A DNA stretch of 64,000 bases from Rhizophagus irregularis. Its lineage: Eukaryota; Glomeromycota; Glomeromycetes; Glomerales; Glomeraceae. Both the position numbers and the translations under genes were made by a program. The notes beneath the pieces are model-generated. The model ran no database searches. It was not told the origin of the DNA and worked only from the letters and a program-made list of their open reading frames with translations. Below are positions 2,806 through 60,800 of the stretch, one piece after another (within the stretch, counting starts at the first letter, position 1; each line of letters begins with the position of its first letter). The stretch spans positions 3,683,001-3,747,000 of the forward strand of contig NC_089433.1 in assembly GCF_026210795.1 (NCBI RefSeq), given 5' to 3'.

Positions 2806-2862
2806 GTGCCATATAACAGGGCGGACATGCTAAATATCACATTGCCGATCATTTGCCGATCA
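2806..2862 (+). repeat. Left end of DNA transposon: 9-bp TSD, TIR and subterminal repeats
   Basis: GTGCCATAT (2806-2814) recurs at 6591-6599. The uninterrupted LINE copy 2 has this site once (with one base difference), which proves the insertion. The terminal repeat AACAGGGCGGACAT starts at 2815. Two subterminal units of the TTGCCGATCAT type follow at 2841-2862. Confidence 0.9.
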
Positions 2863-5800
2863 TATATATATTGATTATCCCATTTTTTTGAGGCTTCGGG
2901 CAAAGCCATATTTGCTCAAAAAAATTACACTAATTATTTTATTTGGTAGTTTAGGTTATCAAAAATATACTATAAAAATTTTGTGGCAAAAAAAAATGTA
3001 ATGCCAAAGTTAGCTTTGAGCCAAAATTTTCAATAATTATAGTATTTACCAATCATATGCCGATCATCTGCTAATTTGACTTTGAAGCTTCAGGCGAAGC
3101 CACAGATGTTCGGGCGAAACTTGAAACTTTTATAGTATATTATTTAGGTATTCAAGAATCTGTAGCTAAAATAAACCTGGATAATTTTTGATAACCCAGA
3201 AGTTATTGTTAAATAAATACTTGCAATTATTTAAGGTTAATAAGACTAATTTTTGGTATAGTTTTTATGAACTGTTTTAAGGGTTAATTCATTTATAATA
3301 AATAGAGAATAAAGTAAAATAATTGAATTTTATATATATTGTTCATTTTTTTATAAATAGTTTTTAAAATTTACAGAAAATACTTATAAAAATTGTATCA
3401 ATTTTAATATAAAATATTATTATCTAATTTAAATATAATATAAAACAGCATTATTTTTTTTTAACTTAATAAAAAACAACACTTTTTTTGAATTTAATAT
3501 AAAAGTTTTGAATAAATTATTCAATAAAATGTCAACAGATTCTACTTGCAGTTTTAATTCAACTGATTGCAAAGGAGCAATTAAGCAAATTACTAATAAT
3601 ACAAAAATTCCAATAACAAATAAAGAAATTATTTTAGTTGGCATGAAACTATGTCAAACTCACTATAATAAATTTATTATTAATGAAGCTCATAACCTTA
3701 AACATAATGAAACTTGCTCTCATCCAAAGCATGATGAATATAAAAGTCAATCAAAAAATACAAATAAAAGATCAAAAAACCTTAATCTTGAAAAGGTTCC
3801 AAAGAGATTGATGTTAATTTTAAATTTAGATGAGACTGCTAAAATTTGTAGCTTATGCAGAAAAAGGACAGATAAAGATCCTGATTATAATATATTAGAA
3901 GAATATAATGCACCAATTTCTAAAAAAGAAAATGATAATAATATATTAAATATAGGAAATCATGCTTATTCATTTAGAAAAGATGTTTTATACAGTGGAG
4001 AAGAATTAAAGCAGTTTGAATCAGATTATCAAGAGATTATAACACAATTAACAATTTCAAATGAAATTAGTTTAAGTGATAAAATTAAAAAAATGTCTAA
4101 CATTCTTTATAAAAATCAAAGAGTATTAAAACAAAAAACAATTTATGATCCTGATGAATTTAAAATTATGTTAGAAGAAGCAGATACAGATTTAATTGGA
4201 TTTTTTGATGAATTATATAAGGGAACTAATCCTAATACAAAATCTGTTAAAACAAATAATAATAATAAGAAAAAACTAGTTTCTTTATGTTATTTTTTAG
4301 CTAGTATTAATAACAAATATATAAATGGAATTAAAGCAGATATTGGATCATATTTAGAAACTTCTGGAGCATCAGCTTCTTCTATTGATACACTTGCAAA
4401 TATAGGATTATCAGTATCTCGAAGAACAGTAAATCGACAAAAAACTTATATTTCAGAAGATCATCAGTATACTGTAAATGACTATTGTTTACAAAACATT
4501 GAAAATATGTTTATACTTAATATTGATGATTATCATAATATTCATAGAAGAAATCAACCAACTCTATTAAAAACACATGACATTAATCACTTTGTAACAA
4601 TTTTATTAAATTCAAATTCTAATATTCCTAAAATACCTTATTACTCATTAAACAGAATTCCAATTCATAATCCTAAAGGTGTTGATTTTAAATTAATTAT
4701 AGATTATATTGATGTTAGCTTCATGAGTAAATTAGGAAAAAGTTATTATCAACAAAATGAAATGTGGAAGCAATATTTATCTGATGATTCTTATGAAAAT
4801 AAATTGGAATTTCTTACTGTTCATAATTATGATGGACGTGTTCAAAATCAACAAGAACTAAGATCAATGAAAAATAGTAAGTTGGTGGATTTTATTTTAC
4901 ATCCTTTGCACAATACAAAGGATTATATTGAATCTTCAAATATTTTATTTAAAGTATTTGAAAAAATAGAACAAGAGGATTATTTAAATAATTTTGTAAT
5001 ACCTACAATTTGTGATTGGCCTGGTCAAGTAAATTTAAAAAGAGCTATTACATTAAGACTTAATAAAAAAGAAAATTCTGGAATTTCACCTCAAATATTA
5101 AGTATAATTCCTATGATTGGTCCACTACATATTTCTTTAAATAGCAGAGAAACATTATTTCAACAATATCATTTCTTTTTTGAAATGATATATCATGATC
5201 TCTTTGGAGCTAACAAGATTTTAGCACAAAAACCAAAGCCAAGACTTATTAATCTTATATTAAATTTAACATTTTATGGATGGAAAAATATTCGCAATTT
5301 AATTATTAATCGTTTTGGAAATATAAAAGATGTTGAATATTTAATGATGATAGATTTATTAGACAATTCTTTACCACTTACTTTAGATATATATACTAAA
5401 CTTTTTAGATGTGGATTTTTTGAAGGATATTTAGAAAGTGTTATAAAAATTTGGATTTTATTTCAAAGATTGCATAGACATAATTATAATAAAGCACCAC
5501 TTATATTTTTAAGTGATGTGTTTTATTGGACATTAAATGATCATCCAATACTAGATGTTTTAAAAAATAATTTACCAATTTTTAATGATTATTTTGTTGA
5601 AAATTTTCATAGTTCTCTTAGATATCAAACAGCTGAATCAAATACTGATAAACAAATTATACAAAAAGCAAAAACTATTGATATTGAAAGAAATGATGAT
5701 GGATTTAAAAATACTTTTATTAACACAAGAAATACAAATATTTCAAAGGTTAAATTAATATCTTTAGAAAAGAAAGTTTCATTATTCTTATTATCTCTTT

Positions 5801-6590
5801 TTGATATAATTTATCATAATATTGGAAAATCAAGTAATAATAACAATAATAATATGTTTGAACTTCCAAGTTTTAATAATAGAAATGTAAATGTTAAGCT
5901 TTTTCCTTTAGCTTGGAGTACTTCAAATATACCTGATAATGATAAAATTTGTGATGCAGAAAATTGTCTATCATCAAATTCATCAAATATTATTTTAATA
6001 TGTGGCCATAGCTATCATAAAGAATGCTTAAGTCTACTAGATGAAAAGTGTAAATATTGCTTTAATTATTTATCAGAAAGCATTAAAACAAATATTACTA
6101 GTTTGAATAAAAGATTATTTAAACCATTAAAAGATAATGAAATATCTGAATTTACAGAAGATAAAGGTTTAGATGAAGATTATGATGATGAAAATATTGA
6201 TAGTCTTTTAGAACAAGAAGAATATAATATAAATAATCAATATGAAATTCAATATAATATATGGTTAAACTATAATAATATGTAAATGATAGATAAAAAT
6301 CCTTTATTTTATTTTAATTTTAATAAAAATACTTATTTTCATTAAATTATAAAAAGTTTCCATTAGTAAAATTGCTTAATAATATTCTGATTTAGGTAAA
6401 AATTAATATACTATAATTCTGAAGTAAAATTAAGCTATTCTTAAAATTTTAGTATACATTAATATGTAAATTTTGCAAAAAATAACTGATAACAGTATTT
6501 TTCTTATGTGATATGATTGAATAAATGATCGACAAATGATCGGCAAAATGATCGGCAAAATCGTGATAAAATAGAGATGTCCGCCCTGTT
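2815..6590 (+). mobile_element. DNA transposon, unclassified superfamily, nested in LINE copy 1
   Basis: The element is 3,776 bp with 14-bp identical inverted ends (AACAGGGCGGACAT) and a 9-bp target duplication. Both ends carry arrays of TTTGCCGATCA-like units pointing inwards, the usual layout of transposase binding sites. It encodes a single long plus-strand protein at 3529-6285. A 9-bp duplication is compatible with Mutator-like and some KDZ/Zisupton-like elements, but neither the ends nor the protein let me assign it. Its base composition is more AT-rich than the LINE around it. It inserted after the LINE. Confidence 0.9.
3529..6285 (+). CDS. Transposase-like protein with C-terminal RING-type zinc cluster
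   Basis: This intact 918-aa frame is the only gene of the transposon, so it is the candidate transposase. The first ATG is 3529 (MSTDSTCSF); the frame is open slightly further from a TTG. The N-terminal ~130 residues hold scattered Cys/His pairs (CSFNSTDC, CQTHYNKF, CSHPKH, CSLC), likely a zinc-binding DNA-recognition region. Possible catalytic acidic residues lie in NIDDYHNIH (D333/D334), CDWPGQ (D496, followed by GPLHISLNSRE at ~531) and VENFHSS (E691); this assignment is inference. Residues 808-844 form a RING-type pattern: CDAENC, then CGHSYHKEC, then CKYC. The tail is acidic. I believe similar unnamed proteins are common in Glomeromycotina genomes, but I cannot name the family. A host-derived gene captured by the element is the alternative. 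Confidence 0.75.
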   Translation: MSTDSTCSFNSTDCKGAIKQITNNTKIPITNKEIILVGMKLCQTHYNKFIINEAHNLKHNETCSHPKHDEYKSQSKNTNKRSKNLNLEKVPKRLMLILNLDETAKICSLCRKRTDKDPDYNILEEYNAPISKKENDNNILNIGNHAYSFRKDVLYSGEELKQFESDYQEIITQLTISNEISLSDKIKKMSNILYKNQRVLKQKTIYDPDEFKIMLEEADTDLIGFFDELYKGTNPNTKSVKTNNNNKKKLVSLCYFLASINNKYINGIKADIGSYLETSGASASSIDTLANIGLSVSRRTVNRQKTYISEDHQYTVNDYCLQNIENMFILNIDDYHNIHRRNQPTLLKTHDINHFVTILLNSNSNIPKIPYYSLNRIPIHNPKGVDFKLIIDYIDVSFMSKLGKSYYQQNEMWKQYLSDDSYENKLEFLTVHNYDGRVQNQQELRSMKNSKLVDFILHPLHNTKDYIESSNILFKVFEKIEQEDYLNNFVIPTICDWPGQVNLKRAITLRLNKKENSGISPQILSIIPMIGPLHISLNSRETLFQQYHFFFEMIYHDLFGANKILAQKPKPRLINLILNLTFYGWKNIRNLIINRFGNIKDVEYLMMIDLLDNSLPLTLDIYTKLFRCGFFEGYLESVIKIWILFQRLHRHNYNKAPLIFLSDVFYWTLNDHPILDVLKNNLPIFNDYFVENFHSSLRYQTAESNTDKQIIQKAKTIDIERNDDGFKNTFINTRNTNISKVKLISLEKKVSLFLLSLFDIIYHNIGKSSNNNNNNMFELPSFNNRNVNVKLFPLAWSTSNIPDNDKICDAENCLSSNSSNIILICGHSYHKECLSLLDEKCKYCFNYLSESIKTNITSLNKRLFKPLKDNEISEFTEDKGLDEDYDDENIDSLLEQEEYNINNQYEIQYNIWLNYNNM

Positions 6591-6599
6591 GTGCCATAT
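6524..6599 (-). repeat. Right end of DNA transposon: subterminal repeats, TIR, 9-bp TSD
   Basis: Three units related to AATGATCGGCAAA lie at 6524-6560, pointing opposite to the two units at the left end. The inverted terminal repeat ends at 6590 and the second GTGCCATAT copy is 6591-6599, after which the LINE ORF2 sequence resumes. Confidence 0.88.
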
Positions 6600-54877: not shown

Positions 54878-57800
54878 CTACACATTATAAAAAGCAAAAT
54901 TAAAAGGACTATTATTAGTAATTATATTATTGAAAGAAAAAACTTCATCTAAATGTGAAAAGAAAGAACCACTATGTAAAAAATTGGATGACGAAAATAA
55001 AATGAATAAAAAATCTTTATCTAATTTAAAATTACGAAAATCATTAAAAGGATTAATATATCCACATTCCATATCTCTATTATTATCGATAACTACCGGC
55101 CTATTAAGGGCAGCTGCGGTTCTTTGATTGCGCGAGAAAATGTCCCGATATTTTGTAAAAGACTTTTTTGTGATTCCCCAGGCGTCCCTTAAAGTTTTCC
55201 ATTTCTGGTTGCGAGCTTTCCAAATATTAATTTTGATGAGGATACTACATTGGTGCATATAATGCATAATTAATTTAACAATGTGTTTCATAGTATTAAT
55301 ATGTGCTCGAAAAATCCCTAATAAATCATTGGAGATATATGATTTAAGAAGTAAAAAAGCCACAGGATGAATGGGTTCAGAACGATACGCCCATCTGAAT
55401 GTAGGAGAGTATTCGATTGAATCAGAAATTACTAGAGATAGTCTATCAGCGTGAGATTTCAACAGATCGATTAAAATGTCTCCCATTTGAATAAAAGAGG
55501 ATTTGATAAGTTCATAATTATCTGAACATTCCCATAAATGAATATTTGTTTCAACGTGGGTATGACATGATAGGCATAGTGTACGGTCTTTAATGAGTAG
55601 AGGGAAATTCCTATTCAATATGTCCAAGGTTGGTAACGTGAGCGTTGAACATCTGATTTTCCATTTTAGATCTTTAGTATGCAACAGTGAAGTGGTATCG
55701 TTACGGCCATTATAGTTAAACCATTTGCTGGATAATGCCCAATTAATTAGAAGATTTTTGGTGTCGTTCTTAATTGATTCCAAAGAAGCGTGATTGAGGT
55801 GATTATCTAAACGCCGATAATTCAGTATAGTACTGACACATTTACGAACGTCCTTATCCAGGGGTACTTCATTGTTCCAGTTTAAAGTGATAGTTTGGTT
55901 GGGTAAATGATCGTGTATGATTGTCGTTGGTATAGGTTGAGTGCGGCCTAATTTGGCTTGAATATCCGCAATGTCATTAAACTGGTTACCCGAGTGGGCT
56001 TTGACCTTCAAAAGTTTCACTTTCAATGATAACGATTTTATGATAAAATGGATTGATGACCAAAGTATGTTGTTGTTAATTTTGTTGAAGCGCCTCGGCG
56101 ATATGGTGTGTAAGTTTTTTGATTTATGAAACGAATCAATTGCTGCTTGTGAATCAGTATGAATGATAATTTTACCAAACTCCGGGCATACGACTAACGC
56201 CGTTAAAATAGCCATAGTTTCCGCCTTGGTTGATGAAGGAAAGAATTGTAAAGATCCATTATAGGTGATGTTACTATTGAATAAATTAGAAGTAGTCCAA
56301 CCATAGCCCATAGGAAAACCTGCTTGGGAATTAGTGGAATCATAAGAACCATCAGTAAAAAATTCTAAATCAATGAAGGGCGCGAGCGTAATAGCTATAT
56401 CTTGTAAATCTTCTGATATCTTAAGATCATCAAATAATTTCGTAATTAGATCCATGTTGCGTAAAGTATTTGGAACATTAGAATTATCTTGAATAGGGAG
56501 ATTAATGGGTCGAAAATTCACAGTAGAGTTATAACCTCTTTGGATTAAATGATCATTAAACGCCATAAGGCGATAGTTAGGATGACTATATTTAAGTAAT
56601 TGAAAGTCTTTGATCGGAACGTTAGGACGAGGAAAGAGGTCTTCTTTTTTCTTTTTGGGTAATGCTTCAAGAAGAATCAAGTCTTTATGCTTAACTTGAA
56701 TAATGCATTTTGGTCTCATGTCTCCGACATAATAAGAGAAATGTTGAGCACAACCTTGACAACGAATCAAAATATTGGGAGTTGAACGAGGTGAAGTGTG
56801 GAGTGAAGACGCCGATATATCTTTATGAATCCAATGTTCCATATAAGAGACTGGACAACAATTAGGAAAGTTGTTGGTACTAAGAAGTTTTCCATAGACG
56901 ATATCTGAAAGATGCGGTATCCAAGATGTTACCCATTGTTGAGATCTTTTTGGGTGATGTAAAGTGTTACCATCGATCGGAGGCGTGGGAGGATGTGGTG
57001 CCATAGGGTTTTGAATGATCGGTTTATCTAGATCGAAGATAAGTCTTCCTTGGTTATTGATGGTGATATTGTTTTTTAGAAAAGTGTACCAACGGGGTAT
57101 CTTGCCTCCTTTGTGCTGGAGATTTTTCTTTATAGTATTATAGTCTTCCAGGAACGCGTTATCTTTCGTTATGATGTGGTCTAAGAACATGATTCCTTTG
57201 TTTTTAAGGCTGTTCAAATGGGCAAAAAGAAATTTTTTGTCTATGACAAAATGTGCTAGTGGGTAAGAACCTCCTTTTGTAACAAATTTAAAATTAGTTG
57301 ATAAAGAAAGATTATAAAATTTAAAGAAAGTAAGTAAAGATTCTATTCTAGAAAAACAATTTAACGGTTTATCAAATAAATCAAAAAAATTAATAAGAGA
57401 ATCAGGTAAAAAAAATTTTTGTTGACATAATAAAAAAAGAAATTTTAAAGTATTAGAAGTATGTGGATTGTTTGCTTGTGCGACCAATAAAGAAGATTGA
57501 ACCTTTAATTGATGGTCAAAAAAATTAATTATATGGGGATAAATGTTACTATGTAAAACTGAATTAAAAATACTTTTGGGAAGGTTAAGGGTTTGTTTAA
57601 TAACAGAGCGTAGAGAGATATTAATTTTGTTACATTGGTTGATTGAAAGCATAAAATGCTGTGACAGATATTCTATTCGCGGTATAATAACTTTGTTAAT
57701 CACGTAAATCACGTGATCATGAGTAAGTTTTTTCTTCCTGATAAGCATGGTAACGTAATTGATTGTATTGAAAATTTTCTTAGTACTTGTTTTGTGAAAA

Positions 57801-60800
57801 TCATCCGGATTGAAATAAACTCCCAAAATTCGTGCAGCTTTATACTTAGCTAATAAAGGCACTTTAATTACAGAACCAAATTCAATATCTATATGAGTTG
57901 GTGATGAAGAAGCACCGTTTTTTATTATTTTCTTTGCATGTTTGTTAGCCAAGATGACGGTCTTTTCTTTGTTAATGTGAATATTAGCTAATTCATAAAA
58001 ACTATGTGCGATTTTCAAATTTTCTATAAGGTTGGGTAGTTGTTCTGCCAACCATGTCGTATCGTCCAAGTATCCTAGCACTTTGTGAGATAATAATTCT
58101 TTAATTTCATCATTGTCGTCCGATTGAGACGCATTTTTAGGAAAGAAACAAGTGCGTGGTATTGTTGAAGTATATTCTATTCCTGGAAATCTAGAGGAAT
58201 TAATCGCCTCAAACATTGGGTCGTAGTAAATGACCCACAATAGCGGACATATCGAGTCACCTTGGTCTATACCATTAATAACGTCGTAGGGATCACCAAT
58301 CCAATCCTCAAATATTACATAATTCGATCTATTAGTGAAAAGATTTAAGATGAAGGCGATGATATTTGGCGGGAGACAAATTCTCTCTAGCGCCTTGTTT
58401 AAAAGAGGAATATCTACTCTGTCATATGCTTTTGATAAATCTTGAATCATGATAAATAATGGCTTCTTGAGATTGGTTGCTGCTGTTATGGTTGCTTGTA
58501 TATTGAAAATAATTTCCATGCATGAAGAACCTTGTATTCCAGCTCTGTTATTGTGCTGTAGGACGTTATTTTGACTGATAAATTTATTGAGGCGTGCATT
58601 AATCAGCTTTGTTAAAATTTTCCGGAACGTGTCTAATAATACTATCGGGCGAGTATATCTAATGTCGTTATCCCACCATTGGGGTTTTGGTATTGGATAA
58701 AGTAGAGCTTGTTGCCAACTATCGGAATAACATTATGTGATAGAGAGAAGTTAAAAAGGTATAAGATTTCTTTAAGAAAATTTGTAGGAAATTTTTTGAT
58801 TATCTCGTAATTAACTTTAGATAAACCCGGTGCTTTGTTATTAGGTAAGGTTTTGATAATCTCACATAGTTCATCCATATGAATTTCAATAGCTAATGAT
58901 TCAATTTCATCAACTGATATATTTGTACGGGGTTGATAAAAAGTTTTCCAATAATCGTCAAAACCAACTGTTGGATCATATTTTGAATTACTTGTAAAAG
59001 ATGACCCTATATATTGAAAATGGTTATTAGTTATTTCTGTGATCTTATTTCGATCATTGGAGAATTTAACTTCGCCGTTATCTGTATATTTGATGCGATC
59101 TAATGTTATTTTTCTTGGGTGACGTTCCAAAATTGAATTTAACATTCTTTTGTTATTTGTTTTAATGTCATCATCTCTTCTATCAATGAATTTTTTGATT
59201 TGTTCTGAATCCCATGCTGAACGATCCAAAAGCAATTGTTTATTAATCGCCGTTTCTAATTGATTAATAAAGGATAGAATTCTTTCAAGCTCTACTACCG
59301 TGTCCAAAATTAAAGGAAGAGGTTGAATGGGAACAATGTTATTAAATTGCAATAATTTCGATAACCACTTTCTTTTATATTTCCAATGTTTATCGAAAAT
59401 TTCAAGTATTTCTTTGAGATCAATATTATCGCTCTCATTTTGATTAAGTGTGTTGTTAACGTTTATAAAGTTATTCCTATTTTCAATTATAGATACTTTG
59501 TCGCGTAGATATCTTTTTAGAGATGCAAGTTGATATAGTTGATTGAATTGACGTCTGATGTGTAACGGAAGGATATTTCTTTTAGGGGCTCCACATTTGT
59601 ATTTTTGAACATCAGCTAAGTTTAAAGCCTCTTCTATATCTTTTAAGATTCTTTTCATACGTTCATTGATGAAATTTTGAGATGAACGGAAAGAGATGGA
59701 AGTATCTTTTGAATAATCTTCATAAGTTGGATAAGCGTTTTTATTAATTTCTATCTGAAAAGTATTCCATTGATCCACATCCATGTCCTTTATTTTATAT
59801 TGTTGTTCGTGGGACGGTAAGTCACGTGATAAATTATAATATTTTTGGTTTTTGGATAAGTTAGCGTTAGGATGATCAATACTTGTAAGAAGCAATCTAT
59901 GGTCTGAAGAATAATAACTAGTATTAGTATTAAAAATATTAAATTCTGTAACTTTGTTACATAAATTTTTGGAACCAAAGATATAATCAATCCTTGAAGG
60001 TATTTTTGATGCATCATTAGAATAATGAGTAGGCGTAATTTTATGACCAAATTTTTCTCCTATATGAACCATGTCAAATTTCTGAAGAATTAATTCCATG
60101 GCCCTATGTATATTGTTAAGGATATAGCTTTTTGAGTAATCATCAATTTTGTTTTTGCCACGCGAAGAAGAGGTGTTATTATTTAGGTTATTGATGTTGA
60201 AATCTCCTAATATTAGGGTCACGTGATTTGTTTTGTTTGGCTGTTGATTTAATTTCTCAAAAAGATTATTGATAATATCAATATATGTTTCTTTATGTGC
60301 ATGATTACATTCAGGTAAATAAATGGAATGTGTATAAATCTTTGTTTTGTTCTTAAAATTAAAAGTTGTAGAAATGTAACGTCCTTGTGTTTGAATAATG
60401 GTACTTTCCAAATGATTATGTAGTTGTTCACTGATGATTAGTCTAGATCTGCTACCACGTTTTTCTTTGTCGGGATTGTTGATAATAAAAAAGAATTTAC
60501 TAAAATTATTATTAAAAGGGACCTGATATTTTAAATGTGCTTTCGATTTGCTGATGTCAAAATTGTTATCTCGTTCGTTAGTTTCACAAACATGTAAGAA
60601 ATCAATCTTGTTAACAACCATTAATTCAATGATCTTGTCTTTTTTTGATTGGAAACCTCCTTGTATATTGTGTGTAGCGAAAATTATTTGTTTATAATCA
60701 GAAATTATATCTAAGTAATTGTGAAAAGTTAATTGAGAATTTTGATGATCTGTGGAAATAAAGTTACTGTTTACTTCGTTATTCGAAGTTGAAGAAGAAG

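Follow-up and report, generated by a model that had tools for sequence, protein, structure and literature searches.

The window analysed here is a 64,000-nucleotide stretch of the Rhizophagus irregularis genome (contig NC_089433.1, positions 3,683,001 to 3,747,000). At positions 2815-6590 it contains a transposon of 3,776 bp, inside which is one open gene encoding 918 amino acids. We consider it probable that the element belongs to an autonomous and recently active family of terminal inverted repeat (TIR) transposons, and that its DDE-type transposase represents an undescribed lineage. The kind of element is ordinary, a TIR DNA transposon family; it is the transposase lineage that is unusual and apparently undescribed. 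By undescribed we mean without a match in Pfam, NCBIfam, PHROGs, PDB or the literature searched; Repbase lay outside the comparison. The ends, the insertion site and the gene are as follows.

2806-2814, plus strand: left target site duplication GTGCCATAT, 9 bp, exact.
2815-2828, plus strand: left TIR AACAGGGCGGACAT, exact 14 bp.
2844-2863, plus strand: two GCCGATCAT subterminal repeats, pointing inward, at element positions 30 and 41 (11 bp spacing).
3529-6285, plus strand: open reading frame of 918 amino acids (P0001), from an ATG, with no stop; probable DDE-type transposase with a C-terminal RING.
6525-6556, minus strand: three GCCGATCAT subterminal repeats, pointing inward, 43, 55 and 66 bp inside the right end, with at most 1 mismatch.
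6577-6590, minus strand: right TIR, AACAGGGCGGACAT inverted, exact 14 bp.
6591-6599, plus strand: right target site duplication GTGCCATAT, 9 bp, exact.
56207-57806, plus strand: empty site, a homologous LINE-like (long interspersed nuclear element-like) copy without the insertion, matched by the joined flanks.

Within the window, the terminal repeats are confined to the element. Even with up to two mismatches allowed, AACAGGGCGGACAT had two matches in the whole window, and both were element ends (0.05 expected). Similarly, the only copies of GTGCCATAT in the window were the two that flank the element (0.25 expected). The insertion lies within LINE-like sequence in which, by our own reading of the frames, RNase H and reverse-transcriptase-like frames run on the minus strand. 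When the 800 bp flanks were joined with one copy of the duplication, they matched the empty site with 97.8% identity over 1,600 bp, ungapped. These data bear out the inverted ends and the exact duplication with its empty site, both of which were noticed in the first-pass annotation. The intact 918-residue gene noticed at the same time also held up, and P0001 was the sole frame of at least 100 amino acids wholly within the element. Thus, the inverted ends, the duplication of fixed length and the empty site of a TIR DNA transposon were all found; a few copies of the family lack a duplication.

We searched the genome (146.7 Mb, 32 contigs) for other copies. The 14 bp end AACAGGGCGGACAT occurred 137 times (72 and 65 on the two strands), compared with 0 for a reversed control pattern. 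A related end type, AGCATAGCGRACAT, occurred 233 times (116 and 117; reversed control 0), and exact ends of both types together numbered 370. With the window protein as query, 50 of 288 candidates were scored and gave at least 69 matches; with an exon from a distant clade, 105 of 140 candidates gave at least 110. The nearest copy, L002 (C1:7435192), was 99.7% identical over the entire element and had its own duplication, GATAAATAT, although its frame was broken. Six copies of ~4.55 kb (L003-L007 and L009), which we call subfamily B, shared 99.69-99.93% identity in pairwise comparison (all 15 pairs). The protein match in L009 had four stops, and those in L003-L007 had none. The protein of L004 has 1,054 amino acids and carries the N-terminal Cys/His module twice (residues ~1-260), where the window protein carries it once. 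Exact 9 bp duplications flanked six of the seven copies of subfamilies A and B examined (L001, L002, L004, L005, L006 and L009). Since copies at different sites are near-identical, the family has moved recently, in agreement with the earlier suggestion of activity not long ago.

Ends of the two TIR types were also seen in back-to-back pairs, separated by 5-10 bp, at C1:6052408/6052419, C6:4874673/4874679 and C6:5642264/5642275. By a rough estimate, three such cases among the listed sites is far above random placement. The elements may prefer to insert beside the ends of relatives.

Short copies that retain the ends were abundant. From the first 100 of the 137 end sites we paired 31 miniature elements of ~430-1,290 bp. 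Exact duplications of 9 bp flanked 22 of the 31, and of 10 bp flanked two (L040 and L041). Two more had imperfect duplications (L060, 8/9; L038, 7/9), and in L053 and L057 a 9 bp repeat was offset by a few bases. Internal deletion of the long element accounts for 21 miniatures; 20 of these cover 255-551 bp at the left end of the window element with 77-85% identity, and L040 aligns to an inner part of that element. The remaining 10 match the left end over 60-76 bp alone, and those of them listed share a further stretch of ~155 bp at 74-76%. Derivative, non-autonomous copies that keep the ends are expected of TIR DNA transposons, and the 31 pairs are such copies. Copies with the same ends and 9 bp duplications, which the first-pass annotation had proposed to look for, were found repeatedly, as many independent copies in the same genome. 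In two composite cases, L044 and L055, two partial or whole copies were joined or nested, with one 9 bp duplication around the whole. No sharp target motif was apparent across 35 tabulated duplications; A+T was favoured at the centre, and the G+C content of the duplications was 38%, compared with 28% in the window.

The subterminal repeats were a further constant. Inward GCCGATCAT motifs, with at most 1 mismatch, lay near both ends in all 31 miniatures. In the window element, a third left-side match lies at element position 245. The motif is not specific to the element, in that 6 of its 20 window matches are inside and 14 outside. Retention of the ends and of the GCCGATCAT repeats in the miniatures suggests that the transposase requires both, and the repeats are candidate transposase binding sites.

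More distant members fall into two groups, clade C (L021-L026) and clade D (L029-L032); across the aligned columns, their identity to the window protein is ~37-40%. The value for L024 was 27%, in a row that is badly aligned with the joined frame off. Both clades have intron-like gaps, and those of L021 and L031, before the first aspartate motif, read GTAAGT...AG. We scanned 34 loci for any 9 bp direct repeat flanking inverted ends. Elements were found in 12 of the 34, namely L021, L024, L026, L031 and eight close copies. The clade C elements (L021, L024 and L026) have AGCATAGGGAAA-like ends, and the clade D element (L031) has AGCATAGGTAAA ends. Two extra matches, in L006 and L009, resemble AT-rich chance matches; about two are expected per scan, because five shuffled sets gave nine in total. 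Two further observations concern these clades. First, a decayed clade D copy, L032 (C1:7439700-7442700), starts ~0.7 kb past the near-identical copy L002. Second, L025 and C23:413421-414602 are clade C frame copies on one strand, identical over the query and separated by ~3.2 kb, which may reflect a tandem duplication.

We next consider the protein. The regions discussed below, all on the plus strand, are these.

3547-3858: N-terminal Cys/His region (C7, C14, C42, H45, C63, H65, H68, C107, C110).
4525-4536: DDYH (D333, D334, H336), proposed first catalytic acid; invariant in both alignments.
5014-5028: D-W-P-G-Q (D496), proposed second catalytic acid; D496 invariant, second place W or F.
5119-5142: GPLHISLN (G531-N538); G531, L533, L537 and N538 invariant in the 13-row alignment.
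5596-5613: VENFHS (E691), proposed catalytic glutamate; E691, N692, H694 and S695 invariant in both alignments.
5950-6060: RING-H2 type finger (ligands C808, C813, C825, H827, H830, C833, C841, C844).

The main alignment comprised 13 of the 33 family loci (L001-L026 and L028-L034; L027 is flank). L022, L023, L026, L033, L034 and most close copies were omitted as near-duplicates or fragments. The rows for L018 and L025 are partial and that for L024 is misaligned; columns rest on 9-13 of the 13 rows. There were 81 invariant columns among rows with letters (at least 8). A second protein alignment had 8 rows, and D333, D334, H336, D496, E691, N692 and H694 were invariant in both. H534 of GPLH was invariant in the 8-row alignment; in the 13-row alignment it is L in L032 and F in the misaligned L024. 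Several eukaryotic superfamilies carry C/D(2)H where GPLHISLN stands here. The motifs NIDDYHNIH, CDWPGQ, GPLHISLN and VENFHSS, and the Cys/His cluster at residues 808-844, had all been picked out in the first reading of the window, and they are present and conserved in relatives. The N-terminal Cys/His residues were invariant across a 4-row alignment, and this region presumably binds DNA; its first copy in L004 gave a weak match to CRIPT (PF10235, E 0.033).

The ratio of nonsynonymous to synonymous substitution (dN/dS) was measured between the window protein and L028, L004 and L008, in that order. L028 is a relative on a soil contig, described below. Whole-protein ratios were 0.25, 0.37 and 0.44, well below 1. 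Values for the core were 0.09, 0.28 and 0.35, for the linker 0.23, 0.54 and 0.60, and for the acidic tail 0.31, 0.68 and 0.54. The RING (43 codons) gave 0.09, 0.21 and 0.19, at dS values that are unusually high (0.32, 0.91 and 1.27). Its dN (0.029, 0.194 and 0.245) exceeded that of the core (0.010, 0.153 and 0.154). RING dN fell below that of the linker and tail in the L004 and L008 comparisons, and was about level with theirs in the comparison with L028. The RING is thus under constraint, with its ligands fixed, and these codon comparisons show no constraint above that of the core.

RING-type zinc fingers are usually found in other kinds of protein than transposases. In the C-terminal cluster, all eight ligands were invariant in the 10 rows of the 13-row alignment that cover it. 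Their order is C3H2C3, in the arrangement C-x2-4-C...C-x-H-x2-H-x2-C...C-x2-C of a RING-type finger; the first pair has the spacing C-x4-C, with C-x2-C in L021 alone among the rows shown. When a full-length family profile was compared with PDB (E up to 10), all 16 distinct sequences matched were RING proteins, several of them versions of one protein, and every match lay at the C-terminus. A RING-only profile matched 51 sequences, of which 48 were RING proteins by name or general knowledge and the other three were RAF kinases. The best matches were Pep3/Vps18, a vacuolar-tethering protein (E 0.0012), and AMFR (E 0.0021). With the window RING piece as a single sequence, eight of 10 PDB matches were RING chains, six of them XIAP (BIRC4); the best E was 0.14. 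The ligands and the PDB profile matches, nearly all to RING proteins, strengthen the RING call of the first-pass annotation. As judged from the alignments, the RING is common to all three clades.

Many active RING ubiquitin ligases are marked by an Arg or Lys linchpin after the last cysteine, although many E3s lack it. AMFR has R at this place in the profile alignment. In the family, the residue is F, Y or E in 10 of 10 rows. The absence of a linchpin, together with the best match being the Pep3/Vps18 RING, makes a structural or protein-contact role likelier than that of a plain ubiquitin ligase. Such a role could lie in the assembly of multimers, or in contacts with the chromatin or ubiquitin machinery of the host.

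A mechanism can be proposed from these features. The 918-residue protein would act as the transposase, through an RNase H-like DDE site made of D333 or D334, D496 and E691. It would bind the GCCGATCAT repeats, spaced by 11 bp inside the ends, and then pair the ends. Cutting would occur at the AACAGGG tips, with joining to target DNA at a 9 bp stagger, and repair would turn that stagger into the 9 bp duplication. We infer the catalytic residues, the cut-and-paste route and the binder of the repeats. Conservation and context are what suggest an RNase H-like DDE core.

Several observations weigh against this interpretation of the element and its protein. No duplication was found around three of the 31 miniatures (L036, L054 and L058), around L007 among the seven copies of subfamilies A and B, or around L028 on its contig. 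The core matched no solved transposase in the PDB searches, and the D333-D496 spacing of 163 residues is long for a DDE core. One member of the A2 alignment matched the HEPN family PF18735 (E 0.00087), and L030 and L031 did so below the cut-off (E 1.2 and 0.034). The latter matches, at 1674-2639 in L030 and in L031, fall within the helical region that separates the second D from the E; the match of the A2 member may be a chance match of a helical stretch. For the RING, Pfam matches to the tail were all below curated cut-offs (best E 0.00039, L030), the matches of the full-length profile were individually weak (best RNF38, E 0.047), and the single-sequence search also returned one syncytin and one BRD1 construct. 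Its low dN/dS is partly due to high dS, and its dN is not below that of the core. AlphaFold2 gave a mean predicted local distance difference test score (pLDDT) of 29.4 for the window protein, aligned with L028 only, and 48.6 for the 83-residue RING piece alone; insufficient alignment depth is the probable cause of the low confidence in both. Finally, a published R. irregularis repeat library (PMC11075540) may already contain the family, whatever its name there.

The proteins were compared with known families. No transposase family in Pfam, PHROGs or NCBIfam matched them; Pfam scans ran at E up to 10, where HMMER filters drop most matches above ~0.1, and the spliced protein of L032, which has two stops, was left out of hmmscan. 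Within the same filter limits, no hAT, KDZ, P or Merlin transposase model was matched in the Pfam scans; duplications in these groups are 7-9 bp. Literature searches found no publication on the family, supplementary files and published repeat libraries being outside their scope. The earlier statement that no superfamily could be named thus agrees with Pfam, NCBIfam, PHROGs and PDB alike. It could be that the family founds an undescribed eukaryotic DDE superfamily, in which the ends are short and of the form A(A/G)CA, the duplications measure 9 bp and the RING is ancestral and essential. We give this wider proposal slightly less than even weight.

The main rival is a relative of the Mutator-like elements (MULE) and Rehavkus, MULE being the likeliest superfamily on duplication length. 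The family would then be a very diverged MULE member or sister near Rehavkus, in which similarity has been lost and the RING has replaced a SWIM, CCHC or PHD finger. In outline, both have the same order of DDE residues and an H-containing motif that follows the second acid. As described in PMC6446971, MULE duplications are 8-11 bp, and Rehavkus has 9 bp duplications, a PHD finger and a single open reading frame. The window family, with duplications mostly of 9 and sometimes of 10 bp, falls within these ranges, and it likewise has inverted ends and an accessory zinc finger. Table 1 of the same source gives a C3HC4 RING in one Phytophthora MULE. RING or PHD-like fingers with such duplications therefore have precedent (PMC6446971). 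The claim that a RING is unusual at the end of a transposase is tempered by these precedents in Mutator-type elements.

The searches point away from MULE. Neither a MULE model nor any other transposase model was matched in the Pfam scans, within the filter limits given above. The MULE model PF10551 is abundant in the genome, with at least 150 matches when 150 of the 407 candidates were scored, the best at E 4e-24, yet no listed PF10551 place overlaps the listed matches of the family. An hhalign comparison of the family with five MULE loci of this genome, each represented by its longest frame, gave a probability of 0.5%, from shallow alignments. The C(2)H motif that follows the second D of MULE is not present in either alignment, GPLH being in its place. 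Unlike MULE, the window family has short 14 bp ends and a RING in all three clades. Of the two features described for Rehavkus, the window family shares the 9 bp duplication, and its C-terminal ligands have the order of a C3H2C3 RING rather than of a PHD finger. On balance, we regard membership of this group, or a sister relation to it, as rather unlikely.

A second alternative is that the family is related to fungal DUF6589 (PF20231). In that case DUF6589 proteins would be transposases too, in a lineage broader than that seen here. One clade D exon, that of L030, matched PF20231 in its helical region, and the motif order of DUF6589 (an aspartate motif, G-D-Q or G-D-L, G-L-F-H and a late acidic motif) may be alike. 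However, the match (E 0.35) is below the cut-off and not significant, and longer spliced proteins had no PF20231 match. To our knowledge, no terminal repeats have been described for DUF6589. The genome's four PF20231 matches, all sub-threshold (E 0.013-0.031), belong to another repeat family. This kinship is doubtful, to much the same degree as kinship with MULE. Least of all do we expect the RING protein to be a passenger or regulator of a non-autonomous element, with the catalytic transposase supplied from another locus. Many RING proteins do act as regulators, and the catalytic fold is a predicted one, but no other frame of 100 or more amino acids lies wholly within the element, and long copies with 9 bp duplications in each of the three clades carry a homologous frame. 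The protein also has three widely separated invariant acidic motifs and is under purifying selection.

The four PF20231 loci (L071-L074) were considered as relatives and rejected, as a different repeat family for which hhalign against the window family gave nothing; a 17-column match to L073 was discarded because its order was wrong. They lie at C1:2886500-2891500, C22:1040800-1045800, C9:3564900-3569900 and C10:1546600-1551600. No 9 bp duplication was found for these loci, which are ~4.4 kb repeats, ~98-99% identical, with long frames of up to 664 amino acids (L073).

Partial likenesses to other systems can be set beside the undescribed lineage that we favour. Transposases of KDZ (Kyakuja-Dileera-Zisupton) and Plavaka are likewise fungal and have cysteine-rich parts. 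Zisupton and Dileera make 8 bp duplications, and Plavaka has duplications of 2-3 bp and TGT or CATCA ends (PMC12730594), whereas the window family makes 9 bp duplications. A C-terminal cross-brace zinc domain is shared in outline with piggyBac and PiggyMac; it binds DNA in piggyBac and histone H3 in PiggyMac (PMC8086355). However, piggyBac targets TTAA (PMC7351741), and the window family has 9 bp duplications, the RING-H2 ligand order and no core match. RAG1 is another transposase-derived protein that bears a RING. There the RING is N-terminal and the related Transib makes 5 bp duplications, in contrast to a C-terminal RING, 9 bp and no PDB core match here.

About two thirds of R. irregularis transposable elements were reported to be unclassified before curation (PMC11075540). 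With its intact near-identical copies, miniatures and 9 bp duplications, the window family offers an anchor for part of that fraction. It is also a candidate source of ongoing variation in fungi that were long regarded as asexual (PMC8647823). If the proposal of a new superfamily is true, the founding group now comprises at least three clades, has hundreds of ends in one fungal genome and was active very recently, and its RING could tie transposition to host ubiquitin or chromatin machinery. Were the RING needed for movement, the family would link transposition with ubiquitin or chromatin contacts.

Relatives were also sought outside the genome. Two pattern scans of viral contigs (20 and 41 pattern matches) gave no relative. 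A pattern scan of genome contigs gave one, L028, among 45 pattern matches. It lies on VBAS01000141.1, a 4.3 kb soil contig, and is intact, with 93% protein identity and the same 14 bp ends. The contig was deposited as part of a Bacteroidetes metagenome-assembled genome; it is almost certainly a mis-binned fungal contig, and a probable contamination of the public record. Over the first 130 codons of L028, dS was 0.48, compared with 0.09-0.12 elsewhere, the 0.32 of the RING apart. The 5' part of the gene thus looks as if it had diverged through recombination.

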